Source of the DNA: a virus
Virus record (IMG/VR): IMGVR_UViG_3300033148_003452
Location: 1-36,854 of that record
Strand: one strand, 5' to 3'
DNA length: 36,854 bases
Below, in pieces: positions 1,368 to 31,922 of the stretch (within the stretch, counting starts at the first letter, position 1; the number at the start of each line of letters is the position of its first letter). Under the pieces are notes generated by a model. That model worked only from the letters and a program-made list of their open reading frames with translations. It was not told where the DNA came from and did no database searches. The position numbers were made by a program, and so were the translations under genes.

Positions 1368-2138
1368 TCAAACGAAATATTGTTGCACTTTTTCTAGCCT
1401 TCTCACGGCGATATCAACCCAACGTTTCTCGATTTCTACGCCAATGGATTTTCTGCCAATCTGTTTCGCCGCGATCAGAGTTGAGCCGGTTCCCGCGAAT
1501 GGGTCCAACACAAGCTCGCCAGGTCTGGTGTGCAATTCCATAAAGAATCTAGCCAAGGATGTCGGCTTCTCCGTCGGATGCTGCCATTTTTGCGGAATTA
1601 TCTTTCGTATTCCTTGATCCGGCCTGATGATATTTTCCACCCTTCGCGTTCTATCATACCATTTGCATGTGGCGCCGGATTTTTGCGCAACCAAAACGGC
1701 CTCGTAGCTTCTACGATAATGCCACCCCATGCCCATCGGCCCTTTGTCCCACACCACCATCTGTTTGAAGCCCAAAACTTCGTCCAACCACAAAGACCAT
1801 CGCGCGAATTGAGGATCGGGGCCGCCGCCGCCACAACAACAACAACAACAGCCGCCGGGTGCAAGCAACCTGGCATATTCGGAAGCAGTCCAACGGAACA
1901 ATTCATTCGCAGTCTCAAAATCATCGTTCGCGATGGGGCGAGTCTCAGGTTCGTCCGTGGTAAGTCCAAGAGCATTTTCCCGTTGTGAAATTAAATCGCC
2001 ATTATTATTATTATGCCCATACGGCGGATCGGTGAAAACCATGTCGATTGATTCTGATCCCAGCATAGGCAGTACGTCCCGACAGTCCGCGTGATAAATA
2101 ACAACCTGTCCGTCGTCGTAGTAAGGTTCAATCGTCAT
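1368..2138 (-). CDS. DNA adenine/N4-cytosine methyltransferase (beta-class order)
   Basis: Started at ATG 2138 (GAGG upstream, 4 bp after the previous stop), the product is 256 aa. The longer frame to 2447 overlaps the Zn-ribbon gene and is rejected. The catalytic DPPY is at residues 37-40 and the SAM-binding DPFAGTGST at 212-220. Motif IV before motif I is the beta-class order, which methylates the amino group of adenine or N4 of cytosine. Two odd homopolymers stand out: N4 after DPPYGH, encoded by an AAT run, and six cysteines at 97-102 followed by GGGG, encoded by a TGT run. From memory, very similar runs occur in related phage methylases, so they are probably a family trait. It likely protects phage DNA together with the cytosine enzyme next door; no cognate restriction enzyme is seen. 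Confidence 0.9.
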   Translation of the reverse strand: MTIEPYYDDGQVVIYHADCRDVLPMLGSESIDMVFTDPPYGHNNNNGDLISQRENALGLTTDEPETRPIANDDFETANELFRWTASEYARLLAPGGCCCCCCGGGGPDPQFARWSLWLDEVLGFKQMVVWDKGPMGMGWHYRRSYEAVLVAQKSGATCKWYDRTRRVENIIRPDQGIRKIIPQKWQHPTEKPTSLARFFMELHTRPGELVLDPFAGTGSTLIAAKQIGRKSIGVEIEKRWVDIAVRRLEKVQQYFV

Positions 2139-2142
2139 GGAC

Positions 2143-2406
2143 TTAACCCTCTTCAAGGCAACGTATGGCATTTTCCTGCCACGGCCCAGCCTCTTCGCCC
2201 GATTTCGGCATCGGACCGCTAAAATGCCCTGGCGGTTGATGGTCACAACGTGAGCACAAGACCTTTTGCGGTTTTTTGGCCAATTCCTCCAGCAACTCAC
2301 CGCCGATGCGGATTGGCTCTCCGCATTCGCTGCAATACCAGCGGTATAGCGACGAGCCGCGCAGTTTTGTGCCAGGCTTACCGTAACGTAAAAATCGATC
2401 GCCCAT
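2143..2406 (-). CDS. Small zinc-ribbon protein
   Basis: This 87-aa protein has two CxxC knuckles, C25-SE-C28 and C51-SR-C54, separated by about 22 residues, which is the spacing of a zinc ribbon. The N-terminus is basic and the tail is Gly/Pro/Glu-rich. It sits between the cytosine and amino methyltransferases, 4 bp before the latter, so the three are probably one translational unit. It could be a DNA-binding accessory to either enzyme or an independent small regulator; nothing in the sequence decides. Confidence 0.65.
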   Translation of the reverse strand: MGDRFLRYGKPGTKLRGSSLYRWYCSECGEPIRIGGELLEELAKKPQKVLCSRCDHQPPGHFSGPMPKSGEEAGPWQENAIRCLEEG

Positions 2407-2424
2407 ATTGCCCCTTTTGATATT

Positions 2425-3198
2425 TCATACTGGTCTTCCAGCATCATAAGCCTCGATGATCCGCCTGCCTATCCACTCGGCCACAGGCGTGGTCACCCCA
2501 TTTCCCGTCAATCGTTGACGAGCCGATTCAGGTATTCCACTAGTCCATCCGCCAGGCCATCCTTGAAGAGACTCCCGCTCAGCGGATGAGAGAACACGTA
2601 TTCCCCGTTGGGGGCCTTCATACACGTAATCCTGATCCGCATCCAGCCTTGCTGGTCTCGCACTAAGACATGCAAGGGCTTCTTGCGTCTGGACGCCCGC
2701 CGCGCTATGCCTTTCCATGCTCTCGGCGATATTGCACGCATGGACGAACCGATCAAGGGTCTGCTGCTGATCGAATCCTGCCACGAATTCACGACGCCGG
2801 CTTTGACCCGTAAATGCTGCGGAGTTGATCTCGATAACAACGCAATGGTATCCGAGCACTTCCAGCGCCGCCGTGAAGTCCACAACGTCAGGTGCAGGAA
2901 CATTCTCGCGGAGAACCCACCGGGGTTGGCATCTCGCCACCATCGCCAGAAAATATCCCGACATGTCGGGCTGGCTTGTACCATGAATGTTTCCAGCCAG
3001 GCTTCGTATTGGGCAAGGGTCTCCACCCACAACTCCCAGGCAGGATCGGATTTCGTTCTTCGGTACATCAGACCAGTGCCGTTCGAGGATCGCGAAGCAA
3101 CGTTTGTCATTCTCCACCTGGAATACGCATTTCATTCCTGCCCGCTCAAGGCCGAGGTCCAATCCGCCCGCGCCGGAAAACAGGCTACCAAAAATCAC
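2425..3198 (-). CDS. DNA cytosine-5 methyltransferase
   Basis: The 257-aa protein has the C5-methyltransferase motifs in order: FSGAGG at 7-12 (motif I, SAM), GGDPCP at 58-63 with catalytic Cys62 (motif IV), ENV at 98-100 (motif VI), QSRRR at 132-136 (motif VIII) and GNGVT near the C-terminus (motif X). It is shorter than typical bacterial enzymes (300-400 aa) and has a short target-recognition stretch, as in many phage stand-alone enzymes. The start is GTG at 3198 with GAGGGGGG upstream. It is likely an anti-restriction or self-marking enzyme. The target sequence cannot be read from the motifs. Confidence 0.92.
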   Translation of the reverse strand: MIFGSLFSGAGGLDLGLERAGMKCVFQVENDKRCFAILERHWSDVPKNEIRSCLGVVGGDPCPIRSLAGNIHGTSQPDMSGYFLAMVARCQPRWVLRENVPAPDVVDFTAALEVLGYHCVVIEINSAAFTGQSRRREFVAGFDQQQTLDRFVHACNIAESMERHSAAGVQTQEALACLSARPARLDADQDYVYEGPQRGIRVLSSAERESLQGWPGGWTSGIPESARQRLTGNGVTTPVAEWIGRRIIEAYDAGRPV

Positions 3199-10318: not shown

Positions 10319-11026
10319 TCAAAACGGCCACTCAACTTTTTCAAAATACCCCCCACGTATCCTGGCTTTTTCCCCGTCGCAATCCAGAAGGTCCGTTTTT
10401 TTGAATCGCACGCGCCAGAGTTGCAATTGCTGCGGTTTTTCGTCGGCATATGCCAAAACGTGCGTGGCGCCGGTCACTTGGATGCCTCGCGCGCATGTGC
10501 CTGCACCTGCTGGGGCCGCGCTCTCCTCATAATAACGTCCCTCCGGTTGCTTGAATTTGCGGTCATATAAATCGCTTCCGTCCCTGTACGTTGTTCGATA
10601 GCCGACGTAAGTATTCTTATCAACCAATGACAAGCCGGCCAGGAAAGCCATAAAATGAGCTCGATCGATGTTTGAGTCACGCCAATTGCCGCTATGCCAT
10701 CTGCCGTGATGCCATTTGCCGCCATACCATAGACCATCCATCCAATCGCCATTGAACCAGTCACCGTCATGCCATATGCCATTACACCATAAACCATCGC
10801 GCCATAGGCCATTGCGCCATTCTCCGTTATGCCACTCACCATCGACCCACAGACCGTCGCGCCATTCGCCATCATACCATTTACCATTCAACCATATGCC
10901 ATCGTGCCATTTACCATCGAACCATGCGCCGTCGTGCCAGCGAACGACCCCATTTTTGATCTCCACTTTCGGATTTACAGTATCTGCTTTTCGTAACCAT
11001 TCTGGCCATTTTTTGCGCGGGGTCAT
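10319..11026 (-). CDS. W-pentad repeat protein (W-x-[DN]-G-x), beta-solenoid-like
   Basis: The 235-aa product has a short basic N-terminus, then from about residue 30 to 115 at least 17 near-perfect pentads of the form W-x-[D/N]-G-x ([20 protein letters not shown] and so on). The last few decay ([15 protein letters not shown]). Period-5 repeats with an aromatic at one position and Gly at another suggest a quadrilateral beta-helix, by analogy with pentapeptide-repeat and MORN-like proteins. The last 110 residues form a separate domain with a [14 protein letters not shown] segment and an LWRVRF segment. From memory this resembles C-terminal domains attached to other short-repeat phage proteins. 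It sits between the SNF2-like helicase and a coiled-coil protein. Partner unknown; DNA mimicry is one possibility. Confidence 0.75.
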
Positions 11027-20615: not shown

Positions 20616-21594
20616 TCAAGCGTATACTCGGTTTCCAGCCACCAGTATGTTATTGTTGCTATCAACCGCAATCCCTCTGGTAATGCTACCCGTATCATAT
20701 CGCCACTGCAATTCGCCGGAGGAATTTAGTTTCCAAACACTGTAACCGCCTGAACGATATCCGGCTACCAAGACGTTATCTGAACCGTCTGCGGCGATTC
20801 CACGTATCATATCGCCATTGTAGTGTGCCGGAGGAACTCAATTTCCAAACGCTATAACCGCCGGAACGAGCACCAGCCACTAAGACGTTATCTGCGGCGA
20901 TTCCATAAGCTGCGTCGCCCGTATCATATCGCCACTGCAATTCGCCGGAGGAATTTAGTTTCCAAACACTGTAACCGCCTGAACGATATCCGGCTACCAA
21001 GACGTTATCTGAACCGTCTGCGGCGATTCCACTGTAACCGCCTGAACGATATCCGGCTACCAAGACGTTATCTGAACCGTCTGCGGCGATTCCATAAGCT
21101 GCGTCGCCCGCATCATATCGCCACTGCAATTCGCCGGAGGAATTTAGTTTCCAAACATTGTAACCGCCTGAATGCCATCCGGCCACCAAGACGTTATCTG
21201 AACCGTCTACGGCAACGTCATAAGCCAAATCGCCCGTATGGTATTCCCACTGCAACGCGCCGGAGGCGTTAAGTTTCCAAACATTGTAAACGCCTGAAAG
21301 ATATCCGGCTACCAAGACGTTATCTGAACCGTCTACGGCGATTCCATAAGTATGGTTACCCGTATCATATCGCCACTGCAATTCGCCGGAGGAATTTAAT
21401 TTCCAAACACTGTAACCGCCTGAACGCTCTCCGGTCACCAAGACGTTATCTGAACCGTCTGCGGCGATTCCATGAGTGTGATCACCCGTATCATATCGCC
21501 ACTGCAATTCACCATCCGAATTTAATTTCCAAACGCTACTATACTGGGGTATTAAGGCGCAGCAACACCCTGCCTGATGCCATATTCCCGCCAT
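20616..21594 (-). pseudogene. Seven-unit propeller-like repeat protein, split by a frameshift
   Basis: The start ATG at 21594 overlaps the previous TGA. The product is built of repeats of about 42 residues, consensus VWKLNSSGELQWRYDTGD, a variable part, then GIAADGSDNVLVAGYRSGGY. Seven units are visible, which suits a seven-bladed beta-propeller of the SBBP/delta-60 sort. Unit 4 carries an extra 21-residue piece and unit 5 lacks G-S-D. The frame breaks in unit 6: translation runs WRYDT then into WNRRRR and stops at 20776, while the rest continues in another frame from about 20810 to 20616. A single copy of GGCGATATGATACG sits at 20816-20803; two tandem copies would restore WRYDTGDMIRGIAADG exactly. 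It is either a slipped-strand off state or an assembly collapse. Confidence 0.8.
20968..21094. repeat. 63-bp in-frame tandem duplication
   Basis: A block of 64 bp at 20968-21031 recurs at 21031-21094 with a 63-bp period, and the same 64 bp occur again at 20739-20802. It adds 21 residues without a full repeat unit, a sign of recent slippage or recombination between repeats. Confidence 0.85.
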
Positions 21595-26359: not shown

Positions 26360-26679
26360 CAGTCGATCACCTCGCTGCAAATCAACGTCAGTTGCTGATT
26401 GCGTTCATCGGGATTCAGCACCTGGTTGATCTCCAACGCCCGTGAACCGTACAGAATTCGATCTTCAGCCCTCACGCCCTTCAGGTAACGAATAATCACT
26501 CTATGGCTCGTCGTCGCCTTCACCTGCTGAGCACCGAATCGCTCCTGGCCCTGTAATGGTTCAATTATCGCCCACACAGTCGCATATGTCGTCCATTCGA
26601 TGGCCTCCTCGCCGTATGCGTCGCGGGTGATGCGTTTGCGTTGTAGATTCACCCGATGTCTCAAACGGCCTGGATTCAT
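26359..26679 (-). CDS. Head-tail adaptor (SPP1 gp16 type)
   Basis: The ATG at 26679 overlaps the previous stop by ATGA; 106 aa. GRLRHRVNLQRKRITRDAYG, then WTTYATVWAIIEPLQGQERF and HRVIIRYLKGVRAEDRILYG, match the head-tail joining (stopper) family in order and length. Confidence 0.88.
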   Translation of the reverse strand: MNPGRLRHRVNLQRKRITRDAYGEEAIEWTTYATVWAIIEPLQGQERFGAQQVKATTSHRVIIRYLKGVRAEDRILYGSRALEINQVLNPDERNQQLTLICSEVID

Positions 26680-27605
26680 ACCGGTTCGTGCTCCAATCGC
26701 TTGTCCAATACACGATAAGGCCACAACATGCGTTCAACGTTCAGCGGGACTGGTTTCAGGTTCGCCGCAGCTACGACCTCCCGCCGCTCGAACCAATGTG
26801 ATACCAGTAATTTCAATGCGGCTTTGATTGTGTCCGGGACCGCCGAGGCGTCACCGTAACCGGCAACGTAAGTCACTGTCACCGCCTCCGGCACGCTTCG
26901 CGTGCTAGGCCAGCTTTCGCCGTATGCGGTTACGATCCGGGCTGGTTCCTCGTAAGCGACAGCCTGGTAAGCGCTACTATCTAGTGTTTGCGAATCGCCG
27001 TTCACGTCCACGTAGGCAATCGACGTGACGCTGCTGAGAGGCGGACGCGGGAGTACTATTTCCGCCGGGAACCGATCCAGCCGTAATGTACACGTGCGCG
27101 TCGTGAACGCGCGTCGCGTGAACTCCTCGGCCCACTGTCGCGCCGAAACGATCAGCGAATCCAGCAGATCGTTTTCGTCCGTCGTCAAAGCCTGTCTTGC
27201 GATGCTGACGGCGAAATCACACGTCGCGTTAGCTACCGTCGCAACGGCACGCAGATAAGTCGCTCCGCCAGTATACGCCAGTTCGTAGGCCGTATCGTCG
27301 TTCGACTCATCAACCTGGCTGAACGTGCCGCCGCTTACGTCCGTCCATTCCAGGCCATCGCTCGAATCCTGCAGCTTGACATCCACCGTGCCGCCGCTGC
27401 CGCACGTCCCGGCGTTCAGATAAACCGTCACGTCGTAACCGCTGACATTGACGGACGATCCGGTCACAGTGCCGGCCGCATGATCGCCGGGCGCTATCGT
27501 CTGGACCAGCGACAAATCATCGTCCGTCATATCGAGACGAAGGTAAGCTTTCGCTTCGGCCCGCGTTATCGGCTCGCTACTTGGCGATCCTATCACCAGG
27601 CTCAT
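26676..27605 (-). CDS. Head-tail connector (HK97 gp6 type) with an inserted beta domain
   Basis: The 309-aa product opens with EPITRAEAKAYLRLDMTDDD and, much later, has NDLLDSLIVSARQWAEEFTR followed by the usual beta region (LPRPPLSSVTSIAYVD) and a final IKAALKLLVSHWFERRE helix. In most gp6-like proteins the first two blocks are contiguous. Here about 105 residues (33-140) are inserted, beta-rich and containing VKLQDSSDGLEWTDVSGGTF. That insert resembles the protein encoded after the capsid gene. With it removed, the length is near the normal 190-200 aa. See the findings. Confidence 0.85.
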   Translation of the reverse strand: MSLVIGSPSSEPITRAEAKAYLRLDMTDDDLSLVQTIAPGDHAAGTVTGSSVNVSGYDVTVYLNAGTCGSGGTVDVKLQDSSDGLEWTDVSGGTFSQVDESNDDTAYELAYTGGATYLRAVATVANATCDFAVSIARQALTTDENDLLDSLIVSARQWAEEFTRRAFTTRTCTLRLDRFPAEIVLPRPPLSSVTSIAYVDVNGDSQTLDSSAYQAVAYEEPARIVTAYGESWPSTRSVPEAVTVTYVAGYGDASAVPDTIKAALKLLVSHWFERREVVAAANLKPVPLNVERMLWPYRVLDKRLEHEPV

Positions 27606-27994
27606 GGTCCGGTCGCTCCGTGTACAACGATTGCCACTGCCCCCGCAGCATCCGCGTCAATCGTCAACGCCTTGTTCGCCGGCAGCTTGATCGGTCGTTC
27701 GAAATGTATCTGCGTCGAATTGCCAATCGTGGTACATTTCAATGGACCAATAATCGGCGCCTCGACTGCGTTACCATTCTTGCCGTAGCCTATGGTAACG
27801 CCAAGCGTCCCGCTATCAGCCAACGGCTGTATCAGGATGTCGCGTATATATAACGACAGATTAGCCCCAGGCGCGGCCTTGATCGTCTCACATGCAGTGG
27901 CATCATCCGTGTAAGCGCTGACGGTCCACGGTGCAACGCGATCAGGATACGCCTCGACGGTAGTGAAATTCCCGGAATTGTCCGTTATCGCCAT
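27602..27994 (-). CDS. Beta-rich virion protein before the connector
   Basis: The 130-aa product overlaps the connector start by ATGA. It is beta-rich (APGANLSLYIRDILIQPLAD, IHFERPIKLPANKALTIDAD, AVAIVVHGA), similar in style to head decoration or fibre-base proteins seen in this position in other phages. Probably on the head or neck surface; no cysteine cluster or enzyme motif. Confidence 0.65.
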   Translation of the reverse strand: MAITDNSGNFTTVEAYPDRVAPWTVSAYTDDATACETIKAAPGANLSLYIRDILIQPLADSGTLGVTIGYGKNGNAVEAPIIGPLKCTTIGNSTQIHFERPIKLPANKALTIDADAAGAVAIVVHGATGP

Positions 27995-28002
27995 TACTCA
28001 CC

Positions 28003-28215
28003 TCACATTTCACGCATCCGAGCGGGTTTGCCCGGATCAGCCTGTTTGTCCATGACCGTGAAAGGCTTTGGCGGCCTGCCCTTGCGATCTATCAGGTCAG
28101 CGTGTTCATTTTTCACGCTGACGTATTCGCCTCGTAGAAACAGTTCACCTCCGTTGGACGATACCGATCCGTCAGGATTCAGTCTTACATCACGCTTCAA
28201 TCTTCCGCTAATCAT
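28003..28215 (-). CDS. Small basic protein, 70 aa
   Basis: ATG 28215 has GAGGTGAG upstream. The sequence is basic and Gly/Pro-rich (GRLKRDVRLNPDGSVSSNGG) with a probable beta hairpin. It lies between the glycosyltransferases and connector genes; function unknown. Confidence 0.55.
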   Translation of the reverse strand: MISGRLKRDVRLNPDGSVSSNGGELFLRGEYVSVKNEHADLIDRKGRPPKPFTVMDKQADPGKPARMREM

Positions 28216-28271: not shown

Positions 28272-28973
28272 TCATCCCGCAGCGCGAACCGTTTCTTCTG
28301 CCTTGCGTTGTGATATATTACCTGTAAGCTGTTTTTGCATTTCGATCAGTTGTCGATTGAAGCCTACTACGATCTCCAGCAGATCAACCGTCTTGTAATG
28401 GCTGCATATCGCGCGAGGATGGGCGACGTAGCGGAACCCGTAGCGCTTCGCCTTCTTGGAAAAGAAAATGTCCTCGCCGGTACGCTTGCCATCCGGGTAG
28501 GTTTCACGATAGCGGAACCACGGCCAGGGAATCGTCTCGAACACGTGACGATGAATCAGTATGCAGCCCGCCCCTGCCGCCTCCACCTCGAATGGTTCCC
28601 GGTGCTGGCCCCAATGCTCCATGAAACCGTAATCATCCTCGCCCTCACCGACCTTTACTACTATATTGCTGATGATTTTCTGCTGCATGAAAATCGGCAC
28701 AATGGCCGTCGCCAATGGGCTGTTACATTCCAGAAGCAGATCAACGATCCTCTCCGGAGGCCGAACGTCGCTGTCCATCATCATCAGATGCGTGTATTGA
28801 GGATTCTGTAAACATACCCTGGCCAGGCCATTGCGCACCTGGTCCGTCGGCGATCCCATGATCGCGATATAATCAACCCGTGGGTCCTGGCTGATCTTGG
28901 CAATCGCCAGGGTAGTATGCGGATTGATTGTTGAATTAGTCGGTACTGCGAACAGGATTCTCGGCTGCTTCAT
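28272..28973 (-). CDS. GT-A fold glycosyltransferase (Anp1/GT2-like)
   Basis: The 233-aa product starts RILFAVPTNSTINPHTTLAI. D67-S-D69 in HLMMMDSDV is the metal/nucleotide-sugar D-x-D, preceded by a conserved R-N segment (DQVRNGLARVCL). A GAGCILIHRHVFE segment and TGEDIFFSKKAKRYG near the C-terminus supply the acceptor and ED-like motifs. Proteins of this sort in phages transfer sugars to DNA, virion or host targets. The head-module location argues for a virion protein target, which is inference. It overlaps the previous glycosyltransferase by 38 nt. Confidence 0.82.
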   Translation of the reverse strand: MKQPRILFAVPTNSTINPHTTLAIAKISQDPRVDYIAIMGSPTDQVRNGLARVCLQNPQYTHLMMMDSDVRPPERIVDLLLECNSPLATAIVPIFMQQKIISNIVVKVGEGEDDYGFMEHWGQHREPFEVEAAGAGCILIHRHVFETIPWPWFRYRETYPDGKRTGEDIFFSKKAKRYGFRYVAHPRAICSHYKTVDLLEIVVGFNRQLIEMQKQLTGNISQRKAEETVRAAG

Positions 28974-29649
28974 TGCGATATATCGTCCCTCTTTTACGAA
29001 GCCATATCTCCTCGTTTCTCGGTACGCTTAAATGACCACCCATATCGGGATCGTGCCATAGGTGTAAACAGCGAACGGGCAATGTCATATACTCCAACCC
29101 GTAGCCGACCAGCCGTTCGCTCATATCCACGTCATCTTTGCCTCTTCCCGTGAAATCCTCGTCGAATCCACCAATCGCCGTGTAATGCTCACGACGCATC
29201 GCTGTCAGAAAACCTATCAGCGTCGTCTTGAGCGGACGTTTCAGGTCGTCATAATTCGTGCCGTCAAAGCGATTCGACACGTCACGCTTGCCCCATTGTG
29301 GAACGGCGATCGCCTTGGCGTTCATCTCGACGCAACTGATCAACGGTTCGAGGCAGTCATCGATCTGCAGGATTTCAGCCTCGGTCAGAACGATGATCGG
29401 CGCCGAGGCTCGCTTGACTCCGAAATTGAAAGCGAACCCCGGCATCCGCCACCCATTACCACAACGCCCTGTGTGCAGATATCGGAACCCGAAATTCTCA
29501 GCGATGCGCGCCGTCTCGGCGGTGTCCTCGCCGTCATTGACCAGAAGCCTTTCGCATTCCGACAAGACGGGTTGTTCAACCAGTCGTGGAAGCGTTCTGG
29601 TCAACAACTCGTCGCGATTGAATGTGATTACGATCACACTGGCTCTCAT
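28936..29649 (-). CDS. GT2/GT7C-like glycosyltransferase
   Basis: The 237-aa product opens SVIVITFNRDELLTRTLPRL, the standard GT2 start, with VNDGED at 38-43 and TEAEI at 89-93 where D-x-D would be. GGFDEDFTGRGKDDVDMSERL-like residues at about 150-170 and a final HLWHD are the C-terminal galactosyltransferase-type motifs (GGxDExFxGWGxED). The usual second Asp of D-x-D is not conserved, so metal use may differ. It starts on an ATGA overlap with the methyltransferase-fold gene. Confidence 0.82.
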   Translation of the reverse strand: MRASVIVITFNRDELLTRTLPRLVEQPVLSECERLLVNDGEDTAETARIAENFGFRYLHTGRCGNGWRMPGFAFNFGVKRASAPIIVLTEAEILQIDDCLEPLISCVEMNAKAIAVPQWGKRDVSNRFDGTNYDDLKRPLKTTLIGFLTAMRREHYTAIGGFDEDFTGRGKDDVDMSERLVGYGLEYMTLPVRCLHLWHDPDMGGHLSVPRNEEIWLRKRGTIYRNEAAENPVRSTD

Positions 29650-30206
29650 ACTCGTATCCAGAACATCTGATAAGTGGCCAGATCGCTCATCTGCTCAGCC
29701 GAAACGAACGGCTCGAAGCGTGTCATCAATCTGTCCGCCACGGTAATCGCGACCTCCGTTCCGTAATCGTGACAGCCGATTACCGATCCGGCATTCAATA
29801 GCCTACTATAAATCGCCAACTCCTTCGGCTTCCGCCCGCCATCACAGTAGATCAACGCCTTGCCGGCGTCTCGGAGAAATTCCCTGGCGATCTTGATCGT
29901 CCGTTCATCGAACGCATCGGCGACGCGCAGCGAAACTGGCAACTGGGCCAACAAGGATTCGGTCATTGAATCCATCAATCTCTTGTTGTCGATGCTGAGC
30001 ACCTGGGCGCAGTTATGAAACGCCCAGGCGCCCAGATATAACGTCAACGCGCCTCGCCCCGAACCGATCTCTATGATCCGGGTCGGTTGCAAGGCGTTCA
30101 TCACGTTCTCCAGAACCCAAACGGCTAGCGGCGAATGCATGACCTCCATGCCATACATCCGCGTCACTAACCGTTTATGTTCCGGTAAGATCAACATGGC
30201 ATTCAC
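29646..30206 (-). CDS. SAM-dependent methyltransferase fold (Methyltransf_24/CmcI-like)
   Basis: The 186-aa product has EIGSGRG at 45-51 (SAM loop), SIDN at 71-74, YCDGGRKPKE at 120-129, and GCHDYGTE at 144-151. This set, particularly the second acidic cluster and the HDY, is that of Methyltransf_24 and cephalosporin-hydroxylase-like enzymes that act on sugars or secondary metabolites. The start is GTG 30206, overlapping the previous TGA (ATG 30197 is the alternative). With the two glycosyltransferases it forms a three-gene unit. Confidence 0.75.
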   Translation of the reverse strand: MNAMLILPEHKRLVTRMYGMEVMHSPLAVWVLENVMNALQPTRIIEIGSGRGALTLYLGAWAFHNCAQVLSIDNKRLMDSMTESLLAQLPVSLRVADAFDERTIKIAREFLRDAGKALIYCDGGRKPKELAIYSRLLNAGSVIGCHDYGTEVAITVADRLMTRFEPFVSAEQMSDLATYQMFWIRV

Positions 30207-30640
30207 GCACTGACCAGTTCCTCTAGGCCTGCATCCGTCGCCAGCCCGTCGTGATCGTCGCTGGACTTGCGACTCAGGATGCCTATCACAGCCAGGTTGG
30301 TTCCGGTCGTCCCATCACCCGCCGTAACCAGGCACTTGATATAGCGTTTGCGGCCTGCACGCAGATCAACGTCGATAGCGAATATGCTATCGTCCTCGTC
30401 CGCCGCAATTGCGTCAGCCAGCGTCGCGCCGCTGATGTCAGCGTAAGTGCCGTTCGTAGTATCACATTCCTGTAATTTCGGCGCGGCGGTCGTCGCCACA
30501 TCGGTAGTACCCGTGATGATCAGTACCCGCAGATGCTCATAGCCTTGCGTGTCGGCATACGTTAATCCGCTCGGCGCGCCGTTATCCTTCAGCTGCGGCG
30601 GCACAAGAAGTACCATTTTAGTCTGTTCAATTCCGATCAT
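30203..30640 (-). CDS. Head decoration-like beta protein after the capsid gene
   Basis: The ATG at 30640 has GGAGG 7 nt upstream, better placed than the ATG at 30646; 145 aa. The protein is beta-rich: GYEHLRVLIITGTTDV, APKLQECDTTNGTYADISGA, then IFAIDVDLRAGRKRYIKCLV. The KLQE...YADISGAT stretch closely parallels the connector insert. Position directly after the major capsid gene and length fit a head decoration or head-fibre protein. Confidence 0.7.
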   Translation of the reverse strand: MIGIEQTKMVLLVPPQLKDNGAPSGLTYADTQGYEHLRVLIITGTTDVATTAAPKLQECDTTNGTYADISGATLADAIAADEDDSIFAIDVDLRAGRKRYIKCLVTAGDGTTGTNLAVIGILSRKSSDDHDGLATDAGLEELVSA

Positions 30641-30668
30641 TTTCATACCTCCGTTCGTTTACACGTTA

Positions 30669-31922
30669 TTAGCTGCTGTGAGTTACCAGGGCACAGATAG
30701 GACCGGCAGTGGTCGCCGAACCCCAACCGAAGACGTTGATGGCGAATCGTTCAGTCGCACGGAAGCCGATCTGGTCCGAGGCGAAATACACGCTCGCATC
30801 GCTGTTCAACTCGAATGCCCGCCGGTCGCCGAAATAGGCGCCCTGCTTCAGGTCGCCGAGGAACAGGCAAATTTGATCGTTCGCCTCCGTCTTGGGCATC
30901 ACGTCCACGAAGACAACCGGATAGCCCATGAACTGTTTGCCGGGCGATTGCTGGTATTCAGCCTGCAATGCACCACCTGCGGCCTGGGCCAAACGAACCA
31001 GCACTTCAAAATAGAACCGTTTGGAGCAGTAGAACTTCGCGCCGGGTTCGGCGTAAACCGGCAGAACGCCCACAAGAGTACGAATGTTGCCAATCGTAAT
31101 CTCGTCATAGCCATTGCCGGCAGCATCCACCAAGCCGCCATTCGCCGCACTGGCAGTCTGACTGCCATAGCTTGAGTGATTATTTTTGAACGCGCCGGTC
31201 AGGCCGACGAAACCCCAGTAGGTCGAAGTGCCGTCGCCAAGGAAGCCAGCCTGGTCCTCGGCCTTCGCCAATGCACGGGCCATCGAGCGACCGACGATCT
31301 GGCCCACGCCGAGTGCCGCATCTTCGGTCAACTCGCTGGACACGGCAGTCAGACAGGCAAGCTTTTCAGCAACCAAACGCACGTTGCTGAACGCCGGATT
31401 CGACGCCGTGATCGTGCCGCCCTCGCCGACCTTGTAAACCGTCACGTCAGTATTGAGTTTCGGCCACAGATCGGTGTCGGAACTCATCGGCACAACCTGC
31501 GCCTCGCGCCTGAATACGCCGTAGGTTTCCATCAGTTCGATCAACTGGGAATGAAAGACCTCCGGCACGAGCGCACCGCCGCCGGACGTAGTTCCGCCAG
31601 CCAGCTTGATGCCCATCTCGTCAAGGCGCTTTTTGCTCGGCTCGGAACCGCACATCGAGGCAAGAACGAAATGACCGAACGCCTTGAACCATTGCTTCTG
31701 GTCATTCTCGATGGTATGCTGGTTATATGCACGGACCAGACGCTTCAAGTCGTCCATGTCCTTCTGCTGCCCTTCCAGCGCCTTTTTCAACGCATCACGG
31801 CTGTCTTTCAATTCGGTAATCGTCTGTTCCCTGTCATTGACCGCCTTTTCAAGCGGTTCAAGCCGCTTGGCAAGGCGCTCATCGACTTTCTTCACCTGTT
31901 CAATCAATTCATTCAATTCCAT
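30669..31922 (-). CDS. Major capsid protein (HK97 fold)
   Basis: The 417-aa product begins with a helical coiled-coil scaffold-like delta domain (about 1-75, ELIEQVKKVDERLAKRLEPL), then GGALVPEVFHSQLIELMETY, the N-arm of HK97 capsids. Further segments are KLACLTAVSSELTEDAALGV, GDGTSTYWGFVG, KQFMGYPVVFVDVMP, LGDLKQGAYFGDRRAFEL and IGFRATERFAINV at the end. These are the standard HK97-family blocks. The delta domain is presumably removed by the protease encoded before it. Confidence 0.95.
   Translation of the reverse strand: MELNELIEQVKKVDERLAKRLEPLEKAVNDREQTITELKDSRDALKKALEGQQKDMDDLKRLVRAYNQHTIENDQKQWFKAFGHFVLASMCGSEPSKKRLDEMGIKLAGGTTSGGGALVPEVFHSQLIELMETYGVFRREAQVVPMSSDTDLWPKLNTDVTVYKVGEGGTITASNPAFSNVRLVAEKLACLTAVSSELTEDAALGVGQIVGRSMARALAKAEDQAGFLGDGTSTYWGFVGLTGAFKNNHSSYGSQTASAANGGLVDAAGNGYDEITIGNIRTLVGVLPVYAEPGAKFYCSKRFYFEVLVRLAQAAGGALQAEYQQSPGKQFMGYPVVFVDVMPKTEANDQICLFLGDLKQGAYFGDRRAFELNSDASVYFASDQIGFRATERFAINVFGWGSATTAGPICALVTHSS

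Follow-up and report, generated by a model that had tools for sequence, protein, structure and literature searches.

A putative virion-protein glycosylation and O-methylation cassette in the head operon of a phage with a probable Planctomycetota host

We analyzed the IMG/VR virus record IMGVR_UViG_3300033148_003452, a stretch of 36,854 bases referred to here as the window. It carries an HK97-type head operon on the minus strand, with genes in the order terminase (assigned by reading the sequence), portal, protease, major capsid protein (MCP), a capsid-adjacent protein called deco, a methyltransferase-like protein (MT), two glycosyltransferases (GT1 and GT2), a 70-aa protein, a 130-aa protein, and a connector (Table 1). 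The initial annotation described MT-GT1-GT2 as an overlapping three-gene unit at 28272-30206, and the open reading frame (ORF) coordinates proved exact. The deco stop overlaps the MT start by 4 nt, MT overlaps GT1 by 4 nt, and GT1 overlaps GT2 by 38 nt, making translational coupling likely. The unit had also been placed between deco and the connectors; its location in the head operon stands, with the refinement that the 70-aa and 130-aa genes separate it from the first connector. A promoter and terminator scan gave hits at chance level only.

Table 1. Genes of the cassette and its neighborhood in the window
Feature	Coordinates	Strand	Basis
HK97-type major capsid protein (MCP), candidate acceptor	30669..31922	-	Phage_capsid 2.3e-37, phrog_10
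deco, 147-aa capsid-adjacent protein of the phrog_5707 family, candidate acceptor	30203..30646	-	phrog_5707 1.4e-12
MT, class I SAM-dependent O-methyltransferase-like, 186 aa, GTG start	29646..30206	-	Pfam, fold, homologues
GT1, GT-A glycosyltransferase, 237 aa, Glycos_transf_2 and Glyco_transf_7C	28936..29649	-	Pfam, PDB, profile
GT2, phrog_1574 GT-A glycosyltransferase, 233 aa	28272..28973	-	phrog profile, sequence profile, fold
70-aa protein	28003..28215	-	phmmer/tblastn matches
130-aa protein, candidate acceptor	27602..27994	-	phmmer homologues and alignment
Head-tail connector, first one 3' of the cassette	26676..27605	-	TIGR02215 9.5e-27, phrog_442 1.7e-25

MT-GT1-GT2 is a real, conserved, and selected unit. 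When checked for synteny, it was found intact in two related loci, L002 and L010, at 95 to 97% amino acid identity, and dN/dS values of 0.03 to 0.09 for MT, GT1, and GT2 are in line with those of the head genes, indicating purifying selection. Synteny at this identity together with these dN/dS values argues against a chance arrangement. When 50,697 phage records were searched by tblastn with the cassette proteins, five records matched GT2, GT1 had one weak match, and MT had none.

Several other features of the window stand apart from the head operon. Two consecutive DNA methyltransferases, N6/N4 and then C5, occupy 1368-3198, and in the ORF of the first, Cys and Gly codons form a run (APGGCCCCCCGGGG) that may come from simple-repeat expansion or from an assembly error. 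A beta-propeller-like gene at 20616-21594 is built from 126-bp repeats that are almost identical (reaching 100% identity over 63 bp), and its frame is split into overlapping ORFs at 20616-20810 and 20776-21594, a possible recent repeat change or frame break. At 10319-11026, 15-bp repeats encode a 235-aa protein made up of WHDGxWxNGxW units, which had no match in Pfam.

GT1 scores above the Pfam gathering cutoffs for Glycos_transf_2 (2.4e-13; 50.8 bits versus a cutoff of 23.3) and Glyco_transf_7C (1.5e-8; 34.6 bits versus 23.0), and it matches a bacterial chondroitin synthase in the PDB (1.1e-8). Its profile matches Wildflower gp35 (1.6e-11) and Che8 gp109, two phage proteins considered further below. 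GT1 lacks the canonical DxD metal motif and has TEAE at that position. Relatives carry SSAE or TEPE there and Che8 gp109 has TESD; E-x-D/E variants recur in GT1 relatives and in Che8 gp109/Wildflower gp35.

GT2 matches phrog_1574 (3.3e-14), a family annotated as function unknown. Compared with PDB sequences, a profile built from 39 GT2 relatives matched STIV A197 (9.1e-8) and Mnn9 (7.5e-5), both of the GT-A type. The best PDB fold match of the AlphaFold (AF2) model (pLDDT 89.3) was again STIV A197 (2.9e-10), followed by LH3, Mnn9, COLGALT1, ppGalNAcT2, and mimivirus R699; LH3/COLGALT1 and ppGalNAcT2 are enzymes that glycosylate proteins. GT2 has DSD at residues 67 to 69, ED at 167 and 168, and a C-terminal helix. 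Residues D67, D69, E167, and D168 are invariant across the 39 sequences, and the DxD motif and catalytic Asp151 of A197 align with D67/D69 and D168, respectively. As modeled, GT2 has a GT-A fold with the DxD motif and the catalytic carboxylate. The two genes had been called as different GT-A glycosyltransferases, which holds for GT1 by its Pfam scores and for GT2 by the A197 sequence profile and fold matches.

The Pfam matches of MT, to RMNT_CmcI (3.4e-4; 20.8 bits versus a gathering cutoff of 23.2) and Methyltransf_24 (0.0014), are weaker. MT has homologues at 43% identity in loci L012 and L187, and the one in L012 passes the RMNT_CmcI cutoff with 23.9 bits. A single-sequence PDB search with MT gave nothing useful, and a fold search with its AF2 model (pLDDT 87.4) matched CmcI (1.6e-6) and MeT1 (1.5e-6), in agreement with the methyltransferase fold first assigned to this gene. 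The MT model shares the fold of the sugar and small-molecule O-methyltransferases CmcI, rhamnosyl O-methyltransferase, and MeT1, at only about 16% identity. MeT1 methylates a mannose polysaccharide.

To place the cassette among relatives, we used a deco profile; it hit 6 genome loci and 205 viral stretches, and the 80 best of these stretches were retained. Five of these 6 loci bear names of Planctomycetota groups and one that of FCB, which makes a member of the Planctomycetota the probable host of the virus. Among 392 genomes of one phylum, 6 had a member of the deco family, and no cassette was recognized in the short stretches covered there. Nearly all of the relatives examined have deco next after the MCP gene, and what varies is the slot 3' of deco. 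This slot holds MT-GT1-GT2 in the window, L002, and L010; MT-GT1-radical SAM-GT2 in L012; GT1-GT2 in L172; GT2 alone in L166, L013, and L014; and MT followed by the contig end in L187. L191, L193, and L194 have an MT-GT2 fusion (Methyltransf_9, 2e-8; GT2 profile, 1e-8 to 1e-10), then a homologue of the 130-aa protein and a giant glycosyltransferase (GT). No enzyme occupies the slot elsewhere: in L003 the 70-aa gene lies directly behind deco, in about 30 more distant loci (best 80 of 205) the connector does, and many other relatives have a coiled-coil gene there. The 70-aa protein is kept beside the cassette or slot and is also present in L003, L166, and L192. Where GT1 occurs in the slot it is accompanied by GT2, and GT2 also occurs alone behind deco or MCP. 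The slot is therefore a mosaic that gains and swaps GT and MT genes, exchanging glycosyltransferases, methyltransferases, and a radical SAM enzyme. A radical SAM gene lies beside a GT1-type gene in three different contigs (L012:5864-6814, L176:5123-6094, and L179:4789-5895) and may act in sugar or peptide modification.

GT2 relatives outside this slot also adjoin capsid genes. Among the 45 genes that immediately precede GT2 relatives, 11 encode phrog_10 major head proteins, which places MCP next to the GT in at least 11 of the 45 loci; others among the 45 match phrog_909 and phrog_544. Individual checks confirmed nine of the upstream genes as encoding major head proteins, and a further three match the MCP of the window. 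With the GT2 relatives clustered at 60% identity, MCP is directly upstream in 3 of 21 clusters and deco in 4 of 21, so the link to MCP or deco recurs, partly within related lineages. In several other lineages of soil phages, the gene immediately after the major capsid gene encodes a phrog_1574 GT.

The deco protein, the 130-aa protein, and MCP are candidate acceptors. The initial annotation considered Ser/Thr-rich, decoration-like products plausible acceptors, an argument that is weak for the window. Ser plus Thr makes up 16.3% of deco and 14.6% of the 130-aa protein versus a median of 12.4%, and deco proteins are no richer beside cassettes (15.9%) than without one (17.1%); we therefore rejected Ser/Thr enrichment of deco as acceptor evidence. 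The head proteins of the window are not strikingly Ser/Thr-rich and have no Ser-rich tail, and the argument is stronger for relatives. Compared with the PDB, the deco profile gave no convincing match. The N-terminal region of the connector matches phrog_5707 (2.8e-14), the same family as deco, which suggests domain sharing between decoration and connector proteins.

In the relatives, Ser-rich mucin-like tails point to natural acceptors. The homologues of the 130-aa protein in L191, L193, and L194 (phmmer, 5e-18 to 7e-17) lie between GT genes and carry a C-terminal SSSPSASISSSPSAS tail with a mucin-like SSSPSAS repeat. The tailed protein is followed by a protein of 1,061 to 1,258 aa with GT2-type domains (in L193, where the contig ends, 570 aa). 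In L003 and L192, a 307- to 308-aa protein with 36 to 42% Ser plus Thr precedes a related GT. For this second GT type, a protein of 27 to 45% Ser plus Thr lies directly upstream in 12 of 22 loci, some of which are near-duplicates, so a binomial test makes the excess look more significant than it is; in a comparison set from other loci, 27% is reached by 0.6% of 2,072 genes (at least 100 aa). These observations may reflect a general pairing of a mucin-like protein and a GT in environmental phages. In L198, L200, L203 to L206, and L208, the gene directly before the GT2-type protein encodes diverse structural-looking proteins with SPSASPSVSPSES-type repeats, at the end or internal, and 30 to 45% Ser plus Thr. 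The GT family behind the Ser-rich proteins has zinc-ribbon-like matches in L003 and L191.

Taken together, the unit is best read as a putative cassette for virion-protein glycosylation and O-methylation, to which we assign a probability of roughly 0.7. This reading draws on the slot behind deco, which evolves as a GT/MT site, on phrog_1574 GTs behind capsid genes elsewhere, on the similar gene mix of mycobacteriophages of the glycosylated kind, and on the lack of any base-hypermodification gene recognized by Pfam among the genes scanned. Glycosylation of virion proteins rather than DNA, with possible O-methylation, had been suggested initially, and synteny and homology support that inference well. 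Expression of the cassette would presumably be late, and its genes would be translated along with those for the capsid and deco. GT2, as a small, soluble, A197-like GT-A enzyme, would take a sugar from a host nucleotide-sugar and place it, as the first unit of the glycan, on side chains (probably Ser or Thr) of an exposed head protein, which could be deco, the 130-aa protein, or MCP; GT1 would add a second sugar, and MT would cap the glycan by O-methylation. We infer the substrate, the sugar, the order of action, and the benefit to the phage, which is probably shielding or altered adhesion. The order is suggested by nested gene content (GT2 alone; GT1 and GT2; MT, GT1, and GT2), a pattern drawn from few contigs, several of which end in the slot. 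GT2 is placed first because it resembles protein-modifying enzymes and its fold neighbors include polypeptide-acting ones. The locus thereby gives phrog_1574 a concrete role to test, that of a capsid-linked GT-A protein glycosyltransferase.

The cassette might instead modify other virion proteins, such as the downstream tail tube, tail fibers, or adhesins, and not the capsid shell, which we consider rather unlikely. A GT need not lie next to its acceptor (the Che8 GTs are at the genome end), some phrog_1574 relatives come after tail-fiber or other GT genes, and tail glycosylation is reported for mycobacteriophages (PMC12363180). However, several lineages have the slot where deco meets MCP, and the homologue of the 130-aa protein that carries the Ser-rich tail adjoins GTs. 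Remodeling of host surface glycans, as serotype conversion or receptor masking during infection, is improbable: while GT1 is of a broad family with exopolysaccharide GTs (EpsD-like) among its members, MT, GT1, and GT2 have no membrane segment (maximum 19-residue hydropathy, ≤1.5), no flippase or GtrA was found, and the genes sit among head genes and stay at the deco junction. We rejected Gtr-type conversion of the host O-antigen, as no membrane flippase or membrane-bound GT was found and the cassette proteins have no hydrophobic segment. Glycosylation of phage DNA on a hypermodified base is very improbable. DNA protection evidently matters to this phage, given its two DNA methyltransferases (1368-2447 and 2425-3198), but among the window genes scanned Pfam recognized none for hydroxymethyl-pyrimidine or any other base hypermodification, GT2 looks like GT-A enzymes that act on proteins and not like GT-B DNA glucosyltransferases, and the cassette lies in the head operon; T4-type DNA glucosylation was rejected on the same Pfam result. 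A passenger (moron) insertion without a virion role, which the empty slot of many relatives would allow, is just as hard to credit in view of the strong purifying selection, the overlapping starts, and the recurrence of GT genes in the same slot.

Extending virion-protein glycosylation to the relatives, we tentatively suggest that Planctomycetota phages may have a fast-swapped, capsid-adjacent slot for writing methyl-capped, mucin-like O-glycans onto proteins of the head surface; in some of the phages, these proteins would have dedicated tails of SSSPSAS repeats and be produced along with GTs of their own. If true, this would be a phage counterpart of mucins or serine-rich-repeat glycoproteins. 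Searches of the literature gave no relevant report on glycosylated, Ser-rich decoration proteins of phages or on glycosylation of planctomycete phage capsids, and we know of no earlier description of virion glycosylation by such a cassette for phages of a Planctomycetota-type host.

Few prokaryotic viruses are documented to have glycosylated virions. According to one paper, virion proteins of Che8, Corndog, and Myrna are glycosylated, Che8 gp110 and Corndog gp38 are essential for capsid glycosylation, and the Myrna GT falls in a different structural cluster (PMC12363180); glycan on mycobacteriophage virions shields them from antibodies, as stated in two others (PMC11256854, PMC11652166). Because the Myrna GT is structurally distinct, we did not take a gp110/gp38 homologue as defining for virion-glycosylation cassettes, and the GT1, GT2, and MT profiles had no significant match to Che8 gp110 or Wildflower gp36. 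Wildflower, which we take to be a cluster O/Corndog-type phage, was located through its relative of Che8 gp110 and has the gene order portal, O-methyltransferase, GT, GT, GT, protease, MCP. Che8 gp108, read by eye, is a GT with a methyltransferase-like C-terminal half. Like Che8 and cluster O (Wildflower gp33-36), the window combines several GTs with an O-methyltransferase, in Wildflower also within the head module. By the criterion of phage GTs in or near structural genes, the window, with two in its head operon, resembles the Che8/Corndog kind, and GT1 groups with Wildflower gp35 and Che8 gp109. Unlike in Che8 and Wildflower, the slot lies behind deco, the probable host is of the Planctomycetota, and relatives have a radical SAM enzyme, an MT-GT fusion, and Ser-rich tails; by profile comparison GT2 and MT, which are of other families, have no detectable homology to the Che8/Wildflower enzymes. 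The coat protein of STIV is glycosylated, and A197 is essential, with its donor and acceptor unproven (PMC10551542). STIV differs in being an archaeal icosahedral virus with a single GT, 17% identical to GT2; A197 is the best match of GT2 by both sequence profile and fold, with the catalytic residues aligned.
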